From positions 1-32,071 of the forward strand of contig JACOXH010000002.1 of the NCBI GenBank assembly GCA_016176415.1: a DNA stretch of 32,071 nt. The letters are read 5' to 3'. Position numbers and translations under genes: made by a program. Within the stretch, counting starts at the first letter, position 1, and every line of letters begins with the position of its first letter. The stretch is from Candidatus Daviesbacteria bacterium (GTDB taxonomy: Bacteria; Patescibacteriota; Microgenomatia; Daviesbacterales; UBA10151). This document shows, in pieces, positions 5,689-17,320 of this stretch. The notes beneath the pieces were generated by a model. That model had not been told where the DNA came from. It saw nothing but the letters and a program-made list of their open reading frames with translations, and did no database searches.

Positions 5689-5694
5689 TATAAT
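5689..5694 (+). promoter_or_regulatory. -10 element (TATAAT) of the original ychF promoter, now detached from ychF
   Basis: TATAAT 8 nt upstream of the orphan ychF start ATGAGTTTAAAAGTTGG at 5703. Confidence 0.55.
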
Positions 5695-5702
5695 TTCCAG
5701 AT

Positions 5703-5719
5703 ATGAGTTTAAAAGTTGG
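5703..5719 (+). other. Left attachment scar 1 (attL1): orphaned native 5' end of ychF
   Basis: ATGAGTTTAAAAGTTGG encodes MSLKVG, matching the ychF start at 16214 (ATGAGCCTACGAGTAGG, MSLRVG); then diverges to stop after MSLKVGRLIIPSHI*. Confidence 0.8.
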
Positions 5720-5861
5720 AAGATTAATTATACCGTCCCATATTTAGACTTTAGCTTTGCTTTTACTACCCCAAAACCTAGATATGGGAGAAATATCATC
5801 CAAGAGAGATGAGTATGGTAAGATAGGTTTTCTAAATCGCCTGATTCTATGGTACAAATAA
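5714..5861 (+). pseudogene. Detached, frameshifted serine recombinase C-terminal tail (element 1)
   Basis: Phase set by the att core AGT: SWKINYTVPYLDFSFAFTTPKPRYGRNIIQER*, then DEYGKIGFLNRLILWYK* in another frame. Matches the element 2 tail DFPFQFNFKLPDSRKARIILERDSLGRI. Confidence 0.65.
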
Positions 5862-5864
5862 TTA

Positions 5865-6368
5865 ATGAAAACTTATGCTTTTATAGATAGCCAAAATTTA
5901 AATTTAGGGACAAGCAAAGATATTTTCCATGGGAGAAAACTAACTTACAAAGGTTGGAAACTGGATTTTAAAAAATTCAGGATATATTTAACTGATAAAT
6001 TTCGTGTGGATAAAGCGTTTCTGTGCATAGGATATATCAAACAAAATGAAAGTTTATATAAAAAACTCAGAGCAGACGGGTATAAACTGATTTTTAAACC
6101 AACAGTAAAAGATCATCAAGGTAAATCAAAAGGAAATGTTGATGCGGAATTGGTATTGCATGCAGCTGCAGTGGAGTTTTCTAGATACGATAAAGCAGTT
6201 ATTGTATCTGGTGATGGCGATTTTTATTGTCTACATGAGTATTTGGAGAAAAATAATAAACTGCTTAGAATCATTATTCCTAATTCAAAGTCTGAATCAT
6301 CACTCTTGAAAAAATTCCATAAATATAAAACATTTATTGAATTTGAAAAGAAGAAATTAGAAAGATGA
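5865..6368 (+). CDS. NYN-domain (LabA/DUF88-like, PIN-fold) putative RNase
   Basis: ORF; AFIDSQNLN, KGNVDAELVLHAA and VIVSGDGDF are characteristic NYN acidic motifs. Confidence 0.85.
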   Translation: MKTYAFIDSQNLNLGTSKDIFHGRKLTYKGWKLDFKKFRIYLTDKFRVDKAFLCIGYIKQNESLYKKLRADGYKLIFKPTVKDHQGKSKGNVDAELVLHAAAVEFSRYDKAVIVSGDGDFYCLHEYLEKNNKLLRIIIPNSKSESSLLKKFHKYKTFIEFEKKKLER

Positions 6369-6470
6369 GTATCAAAATGGGAGGCGTTGCATATAACACG
6401 CAGTCATATGTTCGTTTCTCCCTAGTGATAGATGTATGCCAGAAATATCAAGTAAAAAAGAGGTAAGAAT

Positions 6471-6487
6471 ATGAGTTTAAAAGTAGG
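6471..6487 (+). other. Left attachment scar 2 (attL2): second orphaned ychF 5' end
   Basis: ATGAGTTTAAAAGTAGG; identical to attL1 except one base, and shares the AGTAGG core with attR (16225..16230). Confidence 0.8.
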
Positions 6488-6643
6488 GAACTTCATCACA
6501 CAACTCCAACTTATAATTCAATAGACTTCCCATTCCAATTTAACTTCAAGTTACCTGATTCTAGGAAAGCCAGAATAATCTTAGAAAGAGATTCTTTAGG
6601 CAGGATTATTCACTCAAAAGCACCTGAAATGCTTACATTGTAA
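6482..6643 (+). pseudogene. Detached C-terminal tail of the element's own serine recombinase
   Basis: In phase with the recombinase through the AGTAGG core: SR-ELHHTTPTYNSIDFPFQFNFKLPDSRKARIILERDSLGRIIHSKAPEMLTL*. No own start codon in the integrated state. Confidence 0.8.
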
Positions 6644-6671
6644 AGGAAAAAGACTTAATGATTATTAATGA

Positions 6672-7139
6672 TTGTTAAGGATTTCGGTAAAAATGTTTAA
6701 ATACTCTTTTAATAAAAGACCAATAATAGAAAACTCACAAATAAATAATGTGAGTGTGTTTGTTAGGCATAATTATTTACTTATAAGAGACAAGTTAAAA
6801 GAAAAGGGGAGAGATCTTAATTTGAATAAGGAGGAAGACGTTCAAATGTTTATTGATTTGGTTAAGCAGAGTATAACAGTCAATCTTAGACAAGAGAATA
6901 ACGGGGATGTGTCTTGTACAGAGCATATGAATCCGATGAATCTTACTTATACTAGATCTAATTTAGGAAAAGGTTTTATATTTTGGTTTATCTGTAATCT
7001 TTGTGGAAGAAGGGTAAGATACTTATACTTTCCGCCAAACTCGGAGGTTATGGCTTGCAGGAGATGCCATAGATTAGCGTATAAGAATCAAAATGAAAGT
7101 AATTCTACATTTAGAAGAATGATGAGGGGTTATATTTAA
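6672..7139 (+). CDS. Zinc-ribbon protein of mobile elements
   Basis: ORF (TTG start; ATG at 6693 also possible); ICNLCGRRVRYLYFPPNSEVMACRRCHRLAYKNQ has two CxxC pairs. Confidence 0.65.
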   Translation: MLRISVKMFKYSFNKRPIIENSQINNVSVFVRHNYLLIRDKLKEKGRDLNLNKEEDVQMFIDLVKQSITVNLRQENNGDVSCTEHMNPMNLTYTRSNLGKGFIFWFICNLCGRRVRYLYFPPNSEVMACRRCHRLAYKNQNESNSTFRRMMRGYI

Positions 7140-7140
7140 T

Positions 7141-7713
7141 ATGGCAAAAACTAAAGCAGTAGTACCAGTAAAAACTCTTGATCAGATTAAAGATAGGATC
7201 AGTGGGTTTAGGACTGGATATGATTCAAGGCACGTTTTAGAGAAAGCGGATAAAGAACTAGGTGATAACAATGGTGAGCAGCTTGCAGATTCAGACACTT
7301 TTATTTTTAAAGCTATGACTGTGTATGAGTTTAATAATGGGATGCTTCTAGCTACTGCTATATCCGAGCAATATAAGACTTTAGCTATAGAAATGAGCCG
7401 TAACCTACAGAAGGAATTTGACTGCCAAAGTACTGCTGCAAAGGCTTTAGCCGAGATCGTAACCATGAATTATGTTAGGACTTTAGATATTCAAAGAAGG
7501 ATAAATAATTACTTAGAAAAAGGTACGATAAATGAGGTTGGAGTAAGGTTTTTAGATGTAATGAGTAGGGAATTAGACAGGGCAAATAGGCATTATATCC
7601 AGGCAGTAGAAACTCTTAAAGTATTTAAACAACCTGCAATGCAGCTCAAAATTAGTGCAAATACTGCTGTTGTAGGTCAAAATCAAGTTATCCAGGCAGC
7701 AAATAAACAGTAA
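7141..7713 (+). CDS. Hypothetical element protein
   Basis: ORF directly downstream of 7139, same strand. Confidence 0.6.
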   Translation: MAKTKAVVPVKTLDQIKDRISGFRTGYDSRHVLEKADKELGDNNGEQLADSDTFIFKAMTVYEFNNGMLLATAISEQYKTLAIEMSRNLQKEFDCQSTAAKALAEIVTMNYVRTLDIQRRINNYLEKGTINEVGVRFLDVMSRELDRANRHYIQAVETLKVFKQPAMQLKISANTAVVGQNQVIQAANKQ

Positions 7714-7780
7714 CCGCGTTAATATAGAAGAAATGATTTATACCATGTCCACATAAGTTTACATTGTTTATAGATTAAAA

Positions 7781-8224
7781 CTAATCAATTGTATAATCGT
7801 TGTCAGATGCCCAATTACTTATTGCATCATCAACTATGGAGGAATCCATATCTAAAGTGAAACTCCAGCTATTACCTTCGCTGTCTGTATCATAAGCATC
7901 TCCATCGCTATCAAATTCTGTATAGAAGTTTAAATATCCACCATTGGGGAAATATAAAGTTTCCAAGTGACCATTTGATATATCAGCATCTAAGCTGTAA
8001 CAGTTTCCGCTATCATCGGAACATGCTTCTATAGTTTCTGTTCCGTCCACATAGTCACTAATACTATCCCAATGACTGTCAATAGCGTCTGTTCTACTGA
8101 TCGCATTTTGATCATCGGAAAAATAATTACTGTCATTAAAACTAGAAGACTCATTAGATGAACCTGAATTAAAAATAAAAATAAAGAATGCTATTATCAG
8201 GCCCCAACCAAAAAAAGCTTTCAT
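7781..8224 (-). CDS. Acidic, membrane-anchored hypothetical protein
   Basis: ORF; N-terminal MKAFFGWGLIIAFFIFIF, then Asp/Ser-rich sequence including DSDGDAYDTDSEG. Confidence 0.55.
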   Translation of the reverse strand: MKAFFGWGLIIAFFIFIFNSGSSNESSSFNDSNYFSDDQNAISRTDAIDSHWDSISDYVDGTETIEACSDDSGNCYSLDADISNGHLETLYFPNGGYLNFYTEFDSDGDAYDTDSEGNSWSFTLDMDSSIVDDAISNWASDNDYTID

Positions 8225-8289
8225 TAATATTAATAATACTACTTATGGGATAAAAATAGTGTATATCTATGCTATAATTTTTTTATAAC

Positions 8290-8511
8290 ATGAATAAGAA
8301 AAAAATAGCTCCTTTTTTATTAGCTTCAGTTGCCATTATCATTTTGTTTTATTGGTTTCAAATCAGGCCAAGTGAGATTATAAAGTATTGTGATAACTTA
8401 GCTTGGAAAGAGGCAGAACCTTGGAAGAGGGGGGAAATTTATAAACAGTCGAGAACGCACTATTATAACTGGAAGTATGCTCAATGCTTGCATAGTTTAG
8501 GGTCAAAATAA
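8290..8511 (+). CDS. Small membrane-anchored hypothetical protein
   Basis: ORF of 73 aa; TATAAT immediately upstream of the start; hydrophobic N-terminus. Confidence 0.5.
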   Translation: MNKKKIAPFLLASVAIIILFYWFQIRPSEIIKYCDNLAWKEAEPWKRGEIYKQSRTHYYNWKYAQCLHSLGSK

Positions 8512-8553
8512 ATTCGATTGAAAAATAAACACATTAGGGGTATTATTCAAATA

Positions 8554-8793
8554 ATGAGAAAGAAATTATTCTCTTTTGTTATTGGTATTGCTCTCACATG
8601 TGTTTTTGTTGTGTCTTTTACATCTACCGCTGACGCTTATTCGTATAGAGTTAGAGGTTATACAAGATCAAATGGTGCTTATGTTCGACCTTATTACAGA
8701 ACTAATCCGAATTACACAAGATTTGATAACTATTCAACAAGAGGCAATTATAACCCCTATACGGGTAGGTTTGGTACAAGAAGCCCTTGGTAA
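8554..8793 (+). CDS. Small secreted protein, YxRSNGxYVxPYYRTNP family
   Basis: In-frame ATG at 8554 (ORF track 8518) gives signal peptide MRKKLFSFVIGIALTCVFVVSFTSTADA and motif VRGYTRSNGAYVRPYYRTNPNYTRFDNYSTRGNYNPYTG. Confidence 0.65.
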   Translation: MRKKLFSFVIGIALTCVFVVSFTSTADAYSYRVRGYTRSNGAYVRPYYRTNPNYTRFDNYSTRGNYNPYTGRFGTRSPW

Positions 8794-8963
8794 ATCCTAA
8801 GTTACTTTTTATTATTGCTTTTCTTCATTTATAACTAGACGCACTATGTAAAATGTTTACTAAAACCCAGACACTTATTAGAACAATAACTATCCATTTA
8901 AAAGTTATTACAAACCTTATTTTTAAGAATTCTATACCTTAATTTCATCCTAGCTAACCCTTT

Positions 8964-10556
8964 TTATTTACATAAGTTATTAATCTGAGAAGATAGATTT
9001 TTTTGTTCCCAATAAACATAGTCGCAAGATTTAGAAGCAGATGGGCATCCAGAAATACATTTGCTGTAGTTATCCCAAGCTTCCTTTGTACAAGCTGAAG
9101 AATTATCTCCTGAGTATCCGTAAGCTGCATAGCAAATATCTAAATCATTTTTATTGGTATTAGAACAAGAAACATAACAACTATCTGTTTTATAAAGATT
9201 ATCAGTACATTTATTATAATCAGATGACCATTGGTTCTTTTTGCTTTCCATAGTAGAAGCTATACTTTGAACAGCACCAACATTTTGTGAGGGACAATAA
9301 ACGGTATAGCCATTATAAGAAATAAACACTGGTACTTTATTGGAAGATGGTTGGGAAATATTTTGAGTAGTGTTTTGCACTGGTGCTTGTTGAGATTGAA
9401 AGTTCTTTTGAGCGTCGTCACATTTTTCGTTTGAAGGATAAATGGACCAAGTAGTTCCTACTTGGCAACAAGTAGTTTTCGAACATTGACTACTACGCAC
9501 TCTAATTGAAGTACCTTTACAATTAGGATAGGAAGATTCGCAATCAATAAAAGGATCTGGATCAGTATAGACAGTTTTTTGTGATGGTTTAATTGTGGCT
9601 GTTGGAGTTATGGGAGACCCAAAATGTATGACTACTATTTTTGTTTTTTTATCGGAAAGAAAGCCCTCTTTAACAGTTACGCCAATATCTTTAAAGTTCT
9701 TACCAAGGATGTTATCTTTATTGGTTTTATCAGTCATTAATGAAGATACGACTGAAGATGTATCATAGTAATTTCTAGCTAGGCTTTCACCACTATACTC
9801 TGAATTATAACCAGCTTCCTTTATGAAATAGCTAAAATCTTTCCCGTTTTTCGGTTTTATTTCCCATGAATTGGTATTTAATACGTCTTGCGCTCGTGTT
9901 TCTGATGACTTATCTAATAACTGATTTTCAAACAGTGGGGTAAGATCCTCTTTCTTCCTTTCTGTATTTATTTTTGCGATTATTTCAGTCTTCCAGATAT
10001 TTTCTACTGAAGCTCCACTTCTTTTCTGTAGGTCAGATTCTTGATACCCGTTCACAATATTTGTAATTAATCCATGCCCGTTAATCGTCATTATTGTTAA
10101 ATAAAATAGAAAGTATAAAAATGAAATCAGAGGGATGTAAGGAATAAATTTAAATTGGCTGAAATTTTTCAGTTTGTTTGGTAAGAATATAAAAACGAAG
10201 GTAACTATTCCGATAGCAATATTTGATAAGAAAAGTAAGCCCAAATAGTAAGAAAATTCTTTCTGGTTATTGGAAGTATTAATAGTGGCAACAAAAGAAG
10301 CAATGGTTGCAAGCCATAAGATTATTAAGGATCCTCTAATATTTATTCTATGATTTTTATTTTGAGATTTGGAAATTATATGATCAATAAGAGCTATAAA
10401 ATCATCTCTATGCACCTTTAAATCTTTCCCGATTTTTAAAGAGCCTGCCCTAATATATTGCCCTATATTTTCGCCTTCTTCTTCAAGTAAACTAGAGATC
10501 TCTTCTAATGAAAAGAATTCTTGAGAGCTTAGCTTGTCTTTATTTATCTTTTTCAT
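8964..10556 (-). CDS. Xis-like HTH - transmembrane - CAP/SCP domain - Cys-rich fusion protein
   Basis: N-term FFSLEEISSLLEEEGENIGQYIRAGSLKIGKDLKVHRDDFIALID (excisionase-type HTH); TM segments; IIAKINTERKKEDLTPLFENQLLDKSSETRAQDVL...NILGKNFKDIGVTV (CAP-like); Cys-rich C-terminus. Confidence 0.65.
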   Translation of the reverse strand: MKKINKDKLSSQEFFSLEEISSLLEEEGENIGQYIRAGSLKIGKDLKVHRDDFIALIDHIISKSQNKNHRINIRGSLIILWLATIASFVATINTSNNQKEFSYYLGLLFLSNIAIGIVTFVFIFLPNKLKNFSQFKFIPYIPLISFLYFLFYLTIMTINGHGLITNIVNGYQESDLQKRSGASVENIWKTEIIAKINTERKKEDLTPLFENQLLDKSSETRAQDVLNTNSWEIKPKNGKDFSYFIKEAGYNSEYSGESLARNYYDTSSVVSSLMTDKTNKDNILGKNFKDIGVTVKEGFLSDKKTKIVVIHFGSPITPTATIKPSQKTVYTDPDPFIDCESSYPNCKGTSIRVRSSQCSKTTCCQVGTTWSIYPSNEKCDDAQKNFQSQQAPVQNTTQNISQPSSNKVPVFISYNGYTVYCPSQNVGAVQSIASTMESKKNQWSSDYNKCTDNLYKTDSCYVSCSNTNKNDLDICYAAYGYSGDNSSACTKEAWDNYSKCISGCPSASKSCDYVYWEQKNLSSQINNLCK

Positions 10557-10692
10557 CTTAATGTTAATATTTTTTCCCTATAGGTATATCCTAATACTTA
10601 AGATTTGATAAGTAAAATTTATAATTTACCCCACCATCTTACTCTCTATAGTTTACAAAGATAAAATCAGGTAAAATTAGCTCAAAATTAAG

Positions 10693-12366
10693 ATGACTAT
10701 GACACCTGAAGAAAAAGTTAAAGCAGAGATATGGGAAGTTCTACAGGATTTGAAGGAGAAGAGTCTACTTCCAGATGACGATGGAGCGTTTTTCTATGAT
10801 ACTACCCACACAGTTATTGCAGCAGGTGAAATTAATCTTACTTTAGAAGAGAAATGGGCAGTCGTAAAAAAGCTTGCAAGAGATGGAGTTATTGAAATAG
10901 TAAGAGCCATCGAGCCAGATTGGAGAGGTGGAAGAAATGGATTTTACTTAAAGGTTATACAACCTACTTTTGAGGAGATATATGAGAAGTACAGAATAAT
11001 TAATGACTCTCAAGAAGGTACACAAGCAGTTCCATCTCATGCATATTCTTTAACCAATTCCGAACTTGTTGGTAGTCTAGAATTTAAGTTTAATAGTTTT
11101 AAAGATCTTCCAGAAAAAGGATTCTTCTTGGGCATTGCTGATTATATTAAGTTTATAGATGAAAATCCTGGTTTTGAGGAAATAATTTCAGCAATCGATG
11201 CTTTTAAAGAAAAAGATGCAGCCATACTTGTGGAACTAGGAAAGAAACTTTTGCTGGATGTTGAAAGAGTAGAAAAGGTTATTAAAGATAGATTGCAAGG
11301 GGTAGAGATTAGTTCAAAAATCGTAGAAAAAAGCCTTGAAGAATTAGAAATGAGGAAAGATGGTAGGATCCAGTCAAGTGTTTCAAAGACAGAGGAGCTT
11401 TACAGTGGACTAGGTTATGTTATTACAACACTTTATGAGAATGGGTATGAAAATCTTGTTTCTGATCTTATAAAATTTATTCCAAATACTAAATCAATCG
11501 CAGATTATAAAATCTCGGAATACTATTATCCTTATAAAGAAGAACTTACCGATTATAAGACCAAAATACAGAAAACTATTTGGGGTTCTTGGAACGAACT
11601 CATTGTTGTTTATCTCGTTGTTCACAAGTACAAAGAGAAAAAGAAAGAACTAATTGCTGCTAAAGATGCCTTAGGTGAAATGAACCTTTATGGATTACAT
11701 GAGGAGATGGAAAGTATATTAGGAAATTCTTATGATAAGGAGGGAAGAATGCAATTCATCAAGGATGATTATATTATTCACATTAATAGAGTGCATGACT
11801 TTGTTATTAACAAGCTTAATAGCGACCCAAATAGGAATACTGGGGATGAGGGAGGTAGAACCTTACAGGAAAGGTATACAAATCTTTTAGAAGAGGTAAG
11901 AACTAATACAATTGATTTGCAGGATCGGTACAATAAGCTTTTAGCAGAAATAAAATCCCAAAGATCAGAAAAAAGTAAAGCGATCCCGCAAGAGCCTCAT
12001 AATGAAGTACAAAGCAATTCAGCTGATTTGAACCTATTAGGTTGGAGTTTGATCAAGGATGTAAAAAAGCCTCAATTAAGGAAGAATGATAAAGTTGTAT
12101 ACGAGTTTGCAACGAATTGGTCTGATAAATACCGCTTCTTTGAATGTTTATGGGAGAATCAAGGACACGAAAAGAGTTCACAGGAGTTGTTTGAGTATAA
12201 AAGCAGCGAAAAGTATCCTGAAAAAGGAAAAAGATGGAAAATTAATAAATATATAGGTGAGGAGTTAACAAAGCTTCTCAAAGAGCCTGAATTCAAAAAT
12301 CATCCAATTAGAATTGATCGAAACAATGGTTATACCTTATTTATAGATGAAGTTGCCCCCAATTAA
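10693..12366 (+). CDS. Hypothetical large cargo protein
   Basis: Long ORF of 557 aa; coiled-coil-like centre. C-terminal ~80 aa (YRFFECLWENQGHEKSSQELFEYKSS...) may be a winged-helix fold. Confidence 0.6.
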   Translation: MTMTPEEKVKAEIWEVLQDLKEKSLLPDDDGAFFYDTTHTVIAAGEINLTLEEKWAVVKKLARDGVIEIVRAIEPDWRGGRNGFYLKVIQPTFEEIYEKYRIINDSQEGTQAVPSHAYSLTNSELVGSLEFKFNSFKDLPEKGFFLGIADYIKFIDENPGFEEIISAIDAFKEKDAAILVELGKKLLLDVERVEKVIKDRLQGVEISSKIVEKSLEELEMRKDGRIQSSVSKTEELYSGLGYVITTLYENGYENLVSDLIKFIPNTKSIADYKISEYYYPYKEELTDYKTKIQKTIWGSWNELIVVYLVVHKYKEKKKELIAAKDALGEMNLYGLHEEMESILGNSYDKEGRMQFIKDDYIIHINRVHDFVINKLNSDPNRNTGDEGGRTLQERYTNLLEEVRTNTIDLQDRYNKLLAEIKSQRSEKSKAIPQEPHNEVQSNSADLNLLGWSLIKDVKKPQLRKNDKVVYEFATNWSDKYRFFECLWENQGHEKSSQELFEYKSSEKYPEKGKRWKINKYIGEELTKLLKEPEFKNHPIRIDRNNGYTLFIDEVAPN

Positions 12367-12446
12367 GGTACAAAAAAGTATATTTCCGCTAATTGCTTAC
12401 CTGTAAATACCCTAAGTTACAATTCGTCTAGGCTATAAAAAGCTTG

Positions 12447-12719
12447 ATGAATATGACACAGCAAAGATTAAAAATTGATGATTATTACTCAACTTCGGAT
12501 TTGGCTTTGGCCAGTGCCATTGCACTTTATTATCCGCTTGAAGCGGTAGATAGAACCCAAGATCCATATAAGGCTCAGTTTCTTTTTAAGAAAGAGAGTC
12601 AGCTCGATCAGTTAATTGAATCATATTGGCGTGGAGAACTAAGGATAGAACCTCAAGCCTACTTTAATCAGCTTAAAGCGATTAAGGCAAGGTTATATGC
12701 GGATAGGAGGCAACCATGA
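12447..12719 (+). CDS. DUF5659-like small protein
   Basis: ORF; YYSTSDLALASAIALYYPLEAVDRTQDPYKAQFLFKKESQLDQLIESYWRGELRIEPQAYFNQLKAIKARL. Confidence 0.6.
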   Translation: MNMTQQRLKIDDYYSTSDLALASAIALYYPLEAVDRTQDPYKAQFLFKKESQLDQLIESYWRGELRIEPQAYFNQLKAIKARLYADRRQP

Positions 12720-14248
12720 CTGACGAAGAATATAGGGAATTTGAGGAAAAGTTTAATCAGGAGCAGGAAGAAAAAGCTCAAAAAAGGTTGGCAGAGCTAG
12801 ATAAGGAGTTCCCCTTAGAGGAAAGAATTTTAAGGCTAGAGCAAGCCAAAGCAGAGGAGAAGTTAGAGAAGCAAAAGGTTGAGCTGGAAGAGTTTGAAGG
12901 AGATGAACCAGTTATAGATACTTCTCAATTTCAGCCTTTAACAGTTGATGAGTTAACCAAAACTTTAGGCTTAACTATTAAAAGGGATCAGACCAATAAA
13001 CTTCTTACCTTTTTGGCTCAGCTTTCTGCCTACACAGAGGATTCCCAGCTAAATATTAGTTTTAATGCTCCTTCCAGCAGCGGAAAATCTTTTATCCCGA
13101 CTGAGATAGCTAGGTTATTCCCAGAGAAAGACGTTATTGAAGTAGCCTATTGCAGCCCTACGGCCTTTTTTCATGACTATGGTGAGTTTAACAAGGAAAA
13201 AGGTGGCTATACTGTTGATCTATCCCGTAGGATTCTTATTTTCTTAGATCAGCCTCATACTTTGCTGCTTCAGCACCTTAGACCCATGCTTTCCCATGAT
13301 AAAAAGGAAATTAGATTAAAGATTACGGATAAATCCCAAAAGGCAGGGTTGCGGACTAAAAATATCTATTTGGTTGGTTTTCCTACAGTTATATTCTGTA
13401 CAGCGGGTTTAAATTTGGATGAGCAGGAGGCTACAAGGTTCTTATTGCTATCTCCTGAAATAAACCAGGAGAAAATCAGGGAGGCTATTTACGAGAAGAT
13501 CAAAAAAGAATCCAATTCTTCTCTTTATAGCTACGAGCTGGAATCTAATCCAGAGAGGAAATTGTTAAGAGATCGGGTGCTTGCTATAAAGCAGGAAAGA
13601 ATTAGATTAATTAAGATTGCTAATCCAGGTTTAGTTCAGCAGATGTTTTTAGAAAGAGTTAAAGTTTTTAAGCCCAGACACCAAAGAGATATAGGCAGGG
13701 TGTTAAGTTTAGTTAAGGTTTTTGCCCTTTTAAATCTTTGGTTTAGGGAACGAAATAATTTTATAATCACGGCCAACGATGATGATATTAGGCAAGCTTT
13801 TAAAGTTTGGGATTCCATTTCTGAAAGCCAGGAGTTAAACCTTCCACCTTTTGTTTTCAATCTATTTAAAGACGTAATACAGGCTGCTTATAAGGATAAA
13901 AATGGCGAGTCAGATGGTATGGTGCAGATTGGGTTAACTAGGCAGGACATAATGCAAAAGCATTATGAGGTTTACGGCAGGTTTTTACCTCCTTGGCAAC
14001 TAAAAGAACAAATTATTCCATTATTGGAGGCTGCAGGCTTAATTAGTCAGGAACAAGATACAAGTGATAAAAGGAAAACACTAATTTACCCTACTGCATT
14101 ACTCTCTGTTCCTCAAACTCCAAACAATGGAGAGTTGCATGGTGGGGTAGAAGATAAAACCATTGATCAGTTAACGGCTGATGAGCAGCTTGAAGTAGGA
14201 AAGAGTGTCTTTGGTGAAGGAGTTAAGTGGGCAGAGGAGACAGCATGA
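12716..14248 (+). CDS. P-loop ATPase of mobile element (helicase/primase-associated type)
   Basis: ORF; Walker A FNAPSSSGKS, Walker B-like RRILIFLDQPH; overlaps the stop of the previous ORF. Confidence 0.65.
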   Translation: MTDEEYREFEEKFNQEQEEKAQKRLAELDKEFPLEERILRLEQAKAEEKLEKQKVELEEFEGDEPVIDTSQFQPLTVDELTKTLGLTIKRDQTNKLLTFLAQLSAYTEDSQLNISFNAPSSSGKSFIPTEIARLFPEKDVIEVAYCSPTAFFHDYGEFNKEKGGYTVDLSRRILIFLDQPHTLLLQHLRPMLSHDKKEIRLKITDKSQKAGLRTKNIYLVGFPTVIFCTAGLNLDEQEATRFLLLSPEINQEKIREAIYEKIKKESNSSLYSYELESNPERKLLRDRVLAIKQERIRLIKIANPGLVQQMFLERVKVFKPRHQRDIGRVLSLVKVFALLNLWFRERNNFIITANDDDIRQAFKVWDSISESQELNLPPFVFNLFKDVIQAAYKDKNGESDGMVQIGLTRQDIMQKHYEVYGRFLPPWQLKEQIIPLLEAAGLISQEQDTSDKRKTLIYPTALLSVPQTPNNGELHGGVEDKTIDQLTADEQLEVGKSVFGEGVKWAEETA

Positions 14249-14652
14249 AAAAGATAGCTGTTTTGAAAATAGACCATACCTATGCCAATACTGTTGACAG
14301 CGAGACAAGAGCGAATAGGTTTTATGATTGGTTAATTAACAAAGCCATAAATAATTTGCTTGAAAAGCAAAAGGGTATTGACAACAATAGTACACAAAAG
14401 TACACTGTAAATGATGAAAAAAATAGACGAGGAAAAGAAATCTATCGGCCAAGTATTTACAGAAGGGCTAAACAGAAGCTTGCTTCTAGAAGAGGAATAC
14501 TTAACCCCAGAAGAAGTAGCCAAAATTCTCAAAGTCGAGAAGATTACTATTTATCGAATGTGCCGAGCAGGCAAGCTCCCAGCAGTGAAATTTGGCAAGG
14601 TTTGGAGAATAAGCAGCAAGAAATTAAGGGAAGTTTTGGAGGAGAAGTTTAA
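14245..14652 (+). CDS. Hypothetical small protein, 3' half overprinted by the HTH gene
   Basis: ATG at 14245 gives MKKIAVLKIDHTYANTVDSETRANRFYDWLINKAINNLLEKQ. Only the portion before 14411 looks independently coding. Confidence 0.35.
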   Translation: MKKIAVLKIDHTYANTVDSETRANRFYDWLINKAINNLLEKQKGIDNNSTQKYTVNDEKNRRGKEIYRPSIYRRAKQKLASRRGILNPRRSSQNSQSREDYYLSNVPSRQAPSSEIWQGLENKQQEIKGSFGGEV

Positions 14653-14656
14653 ATGA
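14411..14656 (+). CDS. Excisionase-type HTH DNA-binding protein
   Basis: ORF; YLTPEEVAKILKVEKITIYRMCRAGKLPAVKFGKVWRISSKKLREVLEE; ATGA overlap with the recombinase start. Confidence 0.8.
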   Translation: MMKKIDEEKKSIGQVFTEGLNRSLLLEEEYLTPEEVAKILKVEKITIYRMCRAGKLPAVKFGKVWRISSKKLREVLEEKFK

Positions 14657-16329
14657 TTGCTGCCCTTTATGCCAGAGTTTCTACAGCCAGACAAGAAGAG
14701 CAAGAAACCATAGATTCACAAATTGAAGAGATCAAAAAGAGGATTCAGGAAGATGGAAATATCTTGCCGTCCGAGAATATATTTTCAGATGACGGCTGGA
14801 CTGGTGAAATGCTGCAACGGCCAGGACTTGATGCTATGAGAGACGCAGCTATGGCAGGAGCTTTTCAGATGTTGTATGTCTATGACAGAGGAAGGCTCTC
14901 CAGGGTATTTGCTTACCAGGAAATCATTATTGAGGAGTTGGTTAATTTTGATATTCAGTTTGTTACCATACATGACATTAAGGCTGAAACCCCAGAAGAG
15001 AGGGTGTTGCAGGCTATGCAAGGGGTCTTCCATGAGTATGAAAGGGTCAAGATTGTGGAAAGGATGCGAAGAGGAAAGCTATTTAAGGCTAGAAATGGAA
15101 TACTGATTAATGGAAGTTCAATTTATGGATATGACTATATTAAAAAAACAGAAACAGAACCAGCACACTATAAAATTAATGAAGAGCAGGCTAATGTAGT
15201 TCGCCAGATCTTTGATTGGGTAGGAAATGAAAGAATTTCACTTAACGAGGTTATAAGAAAGCTCTATGATATGGGTATTCCACCTAGGAAAAAGAAAAGC
15301 GAGTTTTGGACAAAAGGTCCCATTGTCAGGCTTTTGCAATGCAGCAGTTATATTGATGGCTATGTTTACTTTAATAAGTCTGAATCATGTGTAGCCAAGA
15401 AACCCATTAAGCACATTAAATATAAGAAAGTTAAAAGGTCTAGTAGAAAACCAAGACCAAGAGAGGATTGGATACCATTTAAGATCGCTCCAATTTTGAA
15501 TGACAGGCCACTTTTTGATAGGGTACAAAAGATCCTCAATTTTAATCAAACCTATGCTCCAAAGAATAGGAAGCATGATTATTTACTTCCAGGACTCCTG
15601 TTTTGCGAATGTGGTAATAGGCGAGCTGGAGATGGACAAAATAAGAGTGGACACTTCTATTACAGGTGTACAGAGAGGATTTATAACTTTCCTTCATTAG
15701 AAAGAAAGTGTAAGTTGCCAGGTGTAAATGCAGTCATATTAGATGGCATGGTATGGAGAGAGCTAATGAAGTTTGTAAAAGACCCAAAAAGGCTTAAAGA
15801 GCAGGTAGAAAGAGTTTTGAGGGAAAGAAAAGATCAGTCAGTAAGTAAACAGGAATGTGATCGTTTGGGGGTTCTTATAAGCAAGATCGAAGAGGAAGAG
15901 CAAAGATATGCTAAAGCTTATGGGGCAGGATCTTTAGAGTTTGGGCAATTTAAAGATCTTATGCGAGATGCAAAGAAAAGGAAGCAGGATCTACAAACAA
16001 AGCTTAATAATCTCCAGGCAAATATAAATGAAGTAGGCTTAGACAAAATACAGGTAGATGATATATGCTATGAGGCACAGAAAGTCCTTGATGAGATAGA
16101 TTACTCTGATAAGTTCAAATCTGTTAGGACTTTACTGGATAAAGTAACTATAAAGGAAGGAGGATGGGTTAACATATGCGGACATATACCATTATTTGCC
16201 CAAATGTTGGGAGATGAGCCTACGAGTAGGAATTGTAGGTCTCCCAAATGTAGGGAAAAGCACATTATTCAATGCTCTTTTGAAAAAGAGGGTTGCTTTA
16301 TCTGCAAATTACCCTTTTGCCACGGTTGA
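14653..16329 (+). CDS. Large serine recombinase (integrated-state form, last 32 codons supplied by ychF out of frame)
   Basis: ORF; resolvase-type N-terminus ALYARVSTARQEEQETIDSQ, DRGRLSR, recombinase domain, zinc ribbon (CECGNRRAG...YYRC), coiled coil. Codons 527-558 lie in ychF sequence (NCRSPKCREKHIIQCSFEKEGCFICKLPFCHG*). Confidence 0.9.
   Translation: MIAALYARVSTARQEEQETIDSQIEEIKKRIQEDGNILPSENIFSDDGWTGEMLQRPGLDAMRDAAMAGAFQMLYVYDRGRLSRVFAYQEIIIEELVNFDIQFVTIHDIKAETPEERVLQAMQGVFHEYERVKIVERMRRGKLFKARNGILINGSSIYGYDYIKKTETEPAHYKINEEQANVVRQIFDWVGNERISLNEVIRKLYDMGIPPRKKKSEFWTKGPIVRLLQCSSYIDGYVYFNKSESCVAKKPIKHIKYKKVKRSSRKPRPREDWIPFKIAPILNDRPLFDRVQKILNFNQTYAPKNRKHDYLLPGLLFCECGNRRAGDGQNKSGHFYYRCTERIYNFPSLERKCKLPGVNAVILDGMVWRELMKFVKDPKRLKEQVERVLRERKDQSVSKQECDRLGVLISKIEEEEQRYAKAYGAGSLEFGQFKDLMRDAKKRKQDLQTKLNNLQANINEVGLDKIQVDDICYEAQKVLDEIDYSDKFKSVRTLLDKVTIKEGGWVNICGHIPLFAQMLGDEPTSRNCRSPKCREKHIIQCSFEKEGCFICKLPFCHG
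16214..16230 (+). other. Right attachment junction (attR): element-supplied ychF 5' codons
   Basis: ATGAGCCTACGAGTAGG encodes MSLRVG but differs from the orphan starts at 5703/6471 mainly at synonymous or conservative positions; core AGTAGG 16225..16230. Confidence 0.8.
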
Positions 16330-17320
16330 ACCAAATGTGGGAGTAGTGGCGGTGCCTGATTCTCGTCTCTCGTTGCTCGCAGAGCTCGTTGCTCGTGAAG
16401 AGAAGATGGATCAATTGCCTCCAATTGTACCGGCAGTGGTGGAGTTTGTGGATATTGCAGGATTGGTAAAAGGTGCGTCAACTGGAGCAGGATTGGGTAA
16501 CCAGTTTTTATCACACGTTAGGGAAGTTGATGCCATAGTTCATGTTTTAAGGGATTTTAATGATCCAAATATTATCAGGGAAGGATCAGAAAATCCTGAT
16601 GCTGATAAATTAACTATTGAGACAGAGTTAGGGTTGGCAGATTTACAGACTATTGAAAAATTAATTCCTGCCCAAGAGGCTCAAGTCAGAGCCAGTAAAG
16701 ATGTTTTAGAGAGCGAGAAGTTAGAGATTCTGAAACAAGTGCAGAATGATTTAAATGAAGGAAGGGTTTTGGGAAAATATAGTATTGGTGACGAGAGGGT
16801 AAAGGATTGGTTCGAACATTTGCCACTGCTTTCTATAAAGCCTGTGCTGTATGTTTACAATGTGAGTGAAGAAGAGTACTCAAACAAGTTGAGAGATTCT
16901 TCGGCTTCGCCTCAGAATGACAAGGTTGTAGTAATTAGTGCAAAAGTAGAAGAGGAATTGGCTGATCTAAATGATGAGGAAAGAAAAGAATATTTAAAAG
17001 AATTAGGGATAGAAGAAACAGGTTTGGAGAGATTAATTAAGAAAACCTACTCTCTTTTGGGACTGATGTCCTTTTTAACTGCAGGTAAAAAAGAAGTTAA
17101 AGCATGGACTATTAAAAAGGGAACAAAAGCCCCACAAGCAGCAGGGGTAATTCATACTGATTTTGAGAAAAAATTCATCAGGGCAGAAGCAGTATCTTTT
17201 GATAAATTAATTGAGGCAGGATCAATGTCAGGAGCAAAACAAAAAGGCTGGGTCAGAACAGAAGGGAAGGATTATATTATGCAGGAAGGTGATGTAGTTG
17301 AATTTTTAATAGGGAGTTAA
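16214..17320 (+). CDS. ychF: Redox-regulated ATPase/GTPase YchF (OBG family)
   Basis: [69 protein letters not shown] and a C-terminal TGS-like region. Start at ATG 16214 by homology with the orphan starts. Confidence 0.95.
   Translation: [368 protein letters not shown]
16894..16924 (+). repeat. Half-unit of the TTGTCATTCTGA repeat inside ychF
   Basis: AGATTCTTCGGCTTCGCCTCAGAATGACAAG, related to the units at 25463..25549 and 26831..26899. Confidence 0.75.

Follow-up and report, generated by a model that had tools for sequence, protein, structure and literature searches.

Stacked insertions of serine recombinase elements as the probable source of three ychF starts in a patescibacterial genome

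Why does the beginning of ychF occur three times within a single patescibacterial locus? We examined this question in a 32,071-nucleotide stretch of DNA, here called the window, from a patescibacterial metagenome-assembled genome (MAG) of 676 kb in 17 contigs (G000). The named relatives with close NYN/ychF loci belong to Candidatus Daviesbacteria and other Microgenomates; most of the genomes compared are MAGs, and the contigs of four of them (G001, G024, G030 and G038) end within stacks. Allowing up to two mismatches, the core ATGAGYYTAMRAGTWGG matches the window at 5703, 6471 and 16214 alone, compared with a mean of 0.20 matches in shuffled windows and no instance of three in 100 shuffles. 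A preliminary description of this DNA had listed these three starts, and the pattern scan finds exactly the same set. Its statement that only the last start leads into ychF also holds, as 16214 is the one core that opens into the gene. The region 5703-6487 is very probably the left part of a site-specific mobile-element stack at ychF codons 1-6. Judging from sequence comparison, at least two insertions have occurred at the first ychF codons, each leaving its recombinase tail as a scar, and such stacking recurs in relatives. The features of the stack are read as follows.

5689-5702, plus strand: putative native ychF -10 box (TATAAT) with its leaderless spacer, to the left of the earliest insertion
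5703-5719, plus strand: putative original ychF start and attL core of older element A, with the GG of codon 6 at 5718-5719 (one of the three window cores)
5720-5830, plus strand: decayed C-terminal tail of a recombinase (tail A), in the recombinase frame, with a stop at 5810-5812 and one extra base relative to G123 (profile and DNA alignment)
5865-6368, plus strand: NYN-domain nuclease-like gene (Pfam NYN, 2.4e-13)
6373-6429, minus strand: convergent structured small-RNA locus, a hairpin ending in a U-run, with its 3′ end against the NYN stop codon (conservation and covariation)
6460-6464, plus strand: Shine-Dalgarno-like GAGGT preceding the putatively donated ychF start (sequence)
6471-6487, plus strand: second ychF start, putative attL core of younger element B (core scan)
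6488-6643, plus strand: intact recombinase tail B, 51 codons, apparently severed from the recombinase gene by integration (tail profile and frame test)
6644-14410, plus strand: element B cargo, mostly uncharacterised
14411-14656, plus strand: HTH_17 excisionase-like protein, candidate directionality factor (Pfam, 5.2e-16)
14653-16329, plus strand: large serine recombinase of element B (Pfam Resolvase, Recombinase and Zn ribbon; PHROG integrase, 8e-74)
16214-16230, plus strand: putative attR core of element B and start of the working ychF (core scan and comparison with relatives)
16214-17320, plus strand: ychF (orthologs 68-79% identical in family members)

The leftmost core appears to be the original ychF start. 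A TATAAT box lies just 5′ of its ATG, and no such box accompanies the 6471 and 16214 cores. The combined promoter and start context, TATAATTTCCARATATGAGTTTAARAGTWGG, matches the window solely at 5689-5719, and the element-free ychF genes of relatives show the same TATAAT promoter-ATG context. This native leaderless promoter indicates that 5703 marks the original 5′ end of ychF. Of the remaining starts, 6471 is preceded by the ribosome-binding-like GAGGT and 16214 sits within the recombinase open reading frame. A core-like string at 6366 (ATGAGTATCAAAATGGG) was dropped as a further core, as it represents the NYN stop codon and the 3′ flank of the small RNA and is conserved in copies elsewhere.

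The sequence following the original start is a relic of a recombinase. Its translation in the recombinase phase reads YEFKSWKINYTVPYLDFSFAFTTPKPRYGRNIIQER up to a stop codon. The preliminary description had proposed checking the tails with a recombinase profile, and a tail profile from which the 5703 copy was excluded matches that copy with E=1.1e-6. In addition, the DNA at 5709-5825 can be aligned along 117 nt to a tail scar in G123, the genome of another family in which the matching tail belongs to a ychF element, at a score of 96 compared with 28 for the best of 500 shuffles. The diverged tail described earlier is therefore present, although its phase is that of the recombinase (ychF phase -1) and not the ychF frame; the two tails quoted at that time are in phase with their cores, like all 22 scars tested. 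The reported frameshift in GAGAGA is likewise real, since the G123 tail scar has one base fewer at this position. No recombinase remnant besides the tail survives within 5720-6470, so the identity of element A rests on this relic.

Element B is better preserved. From the 6471 core, the recombinase phase stays open for 51 codons (ELHHTTPTYNSIDFPFQFNFKLPDSRKARIILERDSLGRIIHSKAPEMLTL, then a stop). The recombinase possesses a Resolvase N-terminal domain, a Recombinase domain and a zinc ribbon, all above the Pfam cut-off, which identifies it as a large serine recombinase; it is in phase with the 16214 core and continues past the attR core into ychF, outside the ychF frame. Both A (5703) and B (6471/16214) combine a core at ychF codons 1-6 with an in-frame tail, the arrangement that defines the group of ychF-targeting recombinase elements. 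PADLOC and NCBIfam searches of the cargo and the NYN gene gave no match. Among the recombinase matches listed from phage and plasmid records, the best were all below 36% identity. Scans of viral contigs returned one match for the recombinase (30% identical) and one for NYN, neither revealing a free circular ychF element, and no excision product or circular form of such an element was seen. The HTH_17 gene directly precedes the recombinase in the window, and similar genes precede the recombinase in G163 and G280.

The same frame relations extend across the class. In a search of 374 genomes, 24 recombinase loci were examined, and ychF is at hand in every one, nearly always directly downstream. 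Recombinase and core share a phase in 23 of the 24 loci compared, and in 22 the recombinase reads through the core. All 22 tail scars lie in the recombinase frame relative to the core (a chance of 3^-22 if they are independent), 21 of them have no stop between core and tail, and homologous tails occur at the left ends of relatives' ychF elements. A single open reading frame spans recombinase, core and tail in G009 and G142. When attL and attR are compared pair by pair, the exchange probably maps to the GG of ychF codon 6. No tail was detected upstream of the recombinase in the 20-kb loci of G095, G256 and G274. A related serine recombinase in G015 (L009) ends in sequence that encodes a P-loop ATPase motif in another frame, which suggests a sister family targeting another ATPase gene.

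From the order, frames, homology and recurrence of these features, we infer how the recombination reaction may proceed. The attP core (GT.GG) would lie inside the recombinase gene. A crossover, probably at the GG of ychF codon 6, would shift the last recombinase codons to attL and join the remaining recombinase to out-of-frame ychF codons. Integration would thereby supply ychF with a new start inside the recombinase open reading frame, and this start would again resemble the target, so that the next element could land there. In the window, element A, the large serine recombinase of which would have been ychF-specific and of the G123 subfamily, would have integrated at the original ychF start, leaving the native promoter, the start and its recombinase C-terminal tail (5689-5830); the recombinase would later have been lost and the tail frameshifted. 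An NYN nuclease and small-RNA module lies between the scars and may be either cargo of A or a separate later arrival. Element B (6488-16230) would then have integrated at the 6471 start, where its own tail remains, and supplied the start at 16214. The relative ages of A and B are deduced from position and decay alone.

The preliminary description had proposed that an old insertion brought a new ychF start into which a second element inserted, and had suggested comparing relatives for the corresponding states. All of them exist, in support of this history. The empty state is found at 17 ychF loci, where the 1.5 kb upstream contains neither a tail nor a recombinase, NYN or small RNA. Single insertions with a tail and a recombinase or its remnant occur in G040, G046 and G237, those with a recombinase, the left end of the insertion being outside view, in G004 and G134, a relic with a tail but no recombinase in G042, and an NYN module lacking a tail in G029. 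Stacks are evident in G163, with tails at 7285, 10075 and 10913 and then a recombinase at 16130, and in G123, with tails at 164, 1865 and 5109 and then a recombinase at 11999; further independent stacks are present in G280, G038 and G009, and also at L146. The inner units of clear stacks usually have no intact recombinase, and an inner unit of 0.8 kb in G163 parallels the 768-bp unit of the window. The ychF locus can thus be read as a fossil record in which promoter, start and tail scars appear in order, at what seems to be a dedicated insertion hot spot of these ultra-small bacteria at the start codon of a conserved GTPase gene.

The body of the older unit differs from what had been proposed. 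The preliminary description had read 5703-6471 as a recombinase element; the tail stands, but the body is an NYN and small-RNA module, overlooked earlier, that is found in many contexts. NYN copies 72-93% identical to that of the window immediately precede either ychF or a ychF-start scar in G001, G007, G019, G024, G029 and G033. At third codon positions, NYN identity is 82% with G001, 69% with G029 and 65% with G024, far above the 44-45% of ychF in the same genome pairs, which indicates that the NYN gene has moved horizontally. Its relatives occur in many phyla. In nearly all of more than 80 copies, a hairpin lies directly 3′ of NYN. Two hairpin alignments, comprising 30 and 21 selected sequences, show 95% pairing, compared with approximately 38-58% when slid; compensatory changes affect 11 of 12 pairs in the first and 10 of 14 in the second. 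A minus-strand promoter-like pair at a fixed distance, with up to three mismatches, is found at 77% of 88 loci compared with 9% in shuffles, and a U-run closes the minus-strand locus; together these features make it probable that the small RNA and NYN are transcribed convergently. In the window itself, the small-RNA promoter is poor. With an NYN open reading frame followed by a convergent covarying hairpin, the window belongs to the same group as these copies. An Rfam search of the hairpin region identified no family, and a literature search that left most subscription journals uncovered gave no description of the pair. NYN and the small RNA possibly constitute an undescribed two-part module, and the covariation support for the pairing is strong. 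Dozens of phylum-diverse copies are represented by the window copy (5865-6429) and loci L142-L221. In four genomes (L130, L131, L138 and L141), the module occupies the interval separating pyrG from tmk and immediately precedes tmk; in one of these, G037 (L138), tmk is damaged in its P-loop region.

The module bears on the number of layers in the stack. What precedes 6471 is not a recombinase 3′ end but flanking sequence of the NYN/small-RNA module. Because the 6471 start abuts this right flank, its donor may be either A or the module, giving two or three layers. With three, A (now promoter, start and tail) would have been followed by a mobile module donating the 6471 start and then by B. This variant of the best explanation contradicts none of it, and we regard it as a serious contender that falls slightly short of an even chance; the choice between two and three layers is close to balanced. 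Three layers would fit the occurrence of the modules in many contexts and phyla, the abutting 6471 start, the module beside ychF with no detected tail in G029, G001, G024, G007 and G039, and, in G019, G010 and G027, the position of the module to the left of a core that leads into a tail or tail-like scar. By contrast, element A of the window and L146 both show the order tail, in some cases cargo, NYN/small RNA and ychF start, in which the module resembles right-end cargo, and no mechanism of module insertion was identified. At G029 and L146, the module at ychF has a left-hand copy of the ychF start without a tail, which raises the possibility that the module arrives in some other way, and the L146 start copy, which extends beyond the core, is outside the reach of the recombinase model.

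Readings without an older element fare far worse. It is very improbable that 5703-6470 is ancestral host sequence, with NYN as a normal ychF neighbour and the 5703 start a chance or slippage duplication. The preliminary description had itself named ancestral sequence at 5703-6471 as the case against its history, and several family members do have NYN immediately before ychF; however, many relatives carry ychF without NYN, and the native promoter at 5703, the in-frame recombinase tail after it and the third-position identity of NYN all contradict this view. Just as improbable is a partial duplication of the left end of element B, which would explain the same core and the same kind of tail at both places, since tails A and B share only about 43% protein identity, placing A in another element lineage, and tail A DNA closely matches G123-type tails.

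The preferred reading, a stack of site-specific elements at ychF, resembles several known systems. Like the SCC/Ccr elements at rlmH in staphylococci, which form tandem composite islands with pseudo-SCC remnants (SCCmec/ACME; PMC5964201), the ychF elements use a large serine recombinase, insert site-specifically into a conserved housekeeping gene that stays functional, and stack. Unlike SCC elements, which insert at the 3′ end of rlmH, they target the 5′ end of their gene and must supply a new start; their attP lies inside the recombinase gene, the tail of which is cut off on integration, and their hosts belong to another phylum. The best NCBIfam matches of the window recombinase are CcrB and CcrC, but the CcrB score of 82 bits against a cut-off of 900 falls short of Ccr orthology at the curated cut-off, and insertion is not at the rlmH 3′ end, which places these elements outside SCC. 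Suicidal integrases of the SSV type also have attP inside the integrase gene, which is partitioned by integration, and are described as exclusively archaeal tyrosine recombinases (PMC8371274). The ychF family shares this internal attP and separation of parts, as seen in 22 of 22 tails and 23 of 24 recombinases in phase, although it comprises bacterial (patescibacterial) serine recombinases that lose a short C-terminal tail and not the catalytic part. It thus appears to represent a milder form of the self-splitting hitherto described as archaeal and tyrosine-type (PMC8371274). Pneumococcal prophages (PPH005) carry int directly upstream of ychF and use as attB a 26-mer between ychF and its upstream neighbour, and a defective prophage was proposed as a ychF expression switch; the parts of the source consulted describe neither a donated start codon nor a split integrase (PMC8637289). 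Our literature search, with most subscription journals uncovered, found no account of ychF-targeting serine recombinases in Patescibacteria. Specificity for ychF in dozens of genomes offers natural attP/attB pairs for a large serine recombinase. As for the nuclease, window positions 5865-6368 share the NYN domain of NYN/PIN-like ribonucleases and a distant match to PDB 2qip, but differ from them in the constant pairing with a convergent structured small-RNA locus that has no Rfam or PADLOC match.

A more speculative proposal is that integration acts as a C-terminal swap of the recombinase. The full-length enzyme encoded by the circle would integrate, and the tail-less form would have changed directionality or activity. 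A second element at the same core would give the upstream recombinase the newcomer's tail in frame, so that stacking could restore a full-length enzyme (compare the G009 and G142 open reading frames), and the NYN and small RNA would form an undescribed two-part mobile module. Taken as a whole, we consider this proposal rather unlikely.

Other loci give glimpses of how such stacks are populated. Inner units of G123 (L257, 301-4914) and G024 (L124, reverse strand) carry genes that by eye are DUF3800-like, SWIM-like, zeta-toxin-like, Mrr-like and PD-(D/E)XK-like, a content resembling defence or toxin islands. In G033 (L126, 9138-15584), the counterpart of the gene upstream of the stack in the window (73% identity) precedes an orphan small RNA and a tail relic that borders on ruvC, and ychF with an NYN module lies approximately 5 kb beyond; this looks like a rearranged stack. 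Finally, L146 of Blackburnbacteria (9934-12520) holds at least three ychF starts. One start comprises 39 nt of ychF, the copy running approximately 20 nt beyond the core with no tail, and is followed by the NYN module; another leads through a tail, a purD-like gene and a decayed second NYN with another small-RNA class into ychF.
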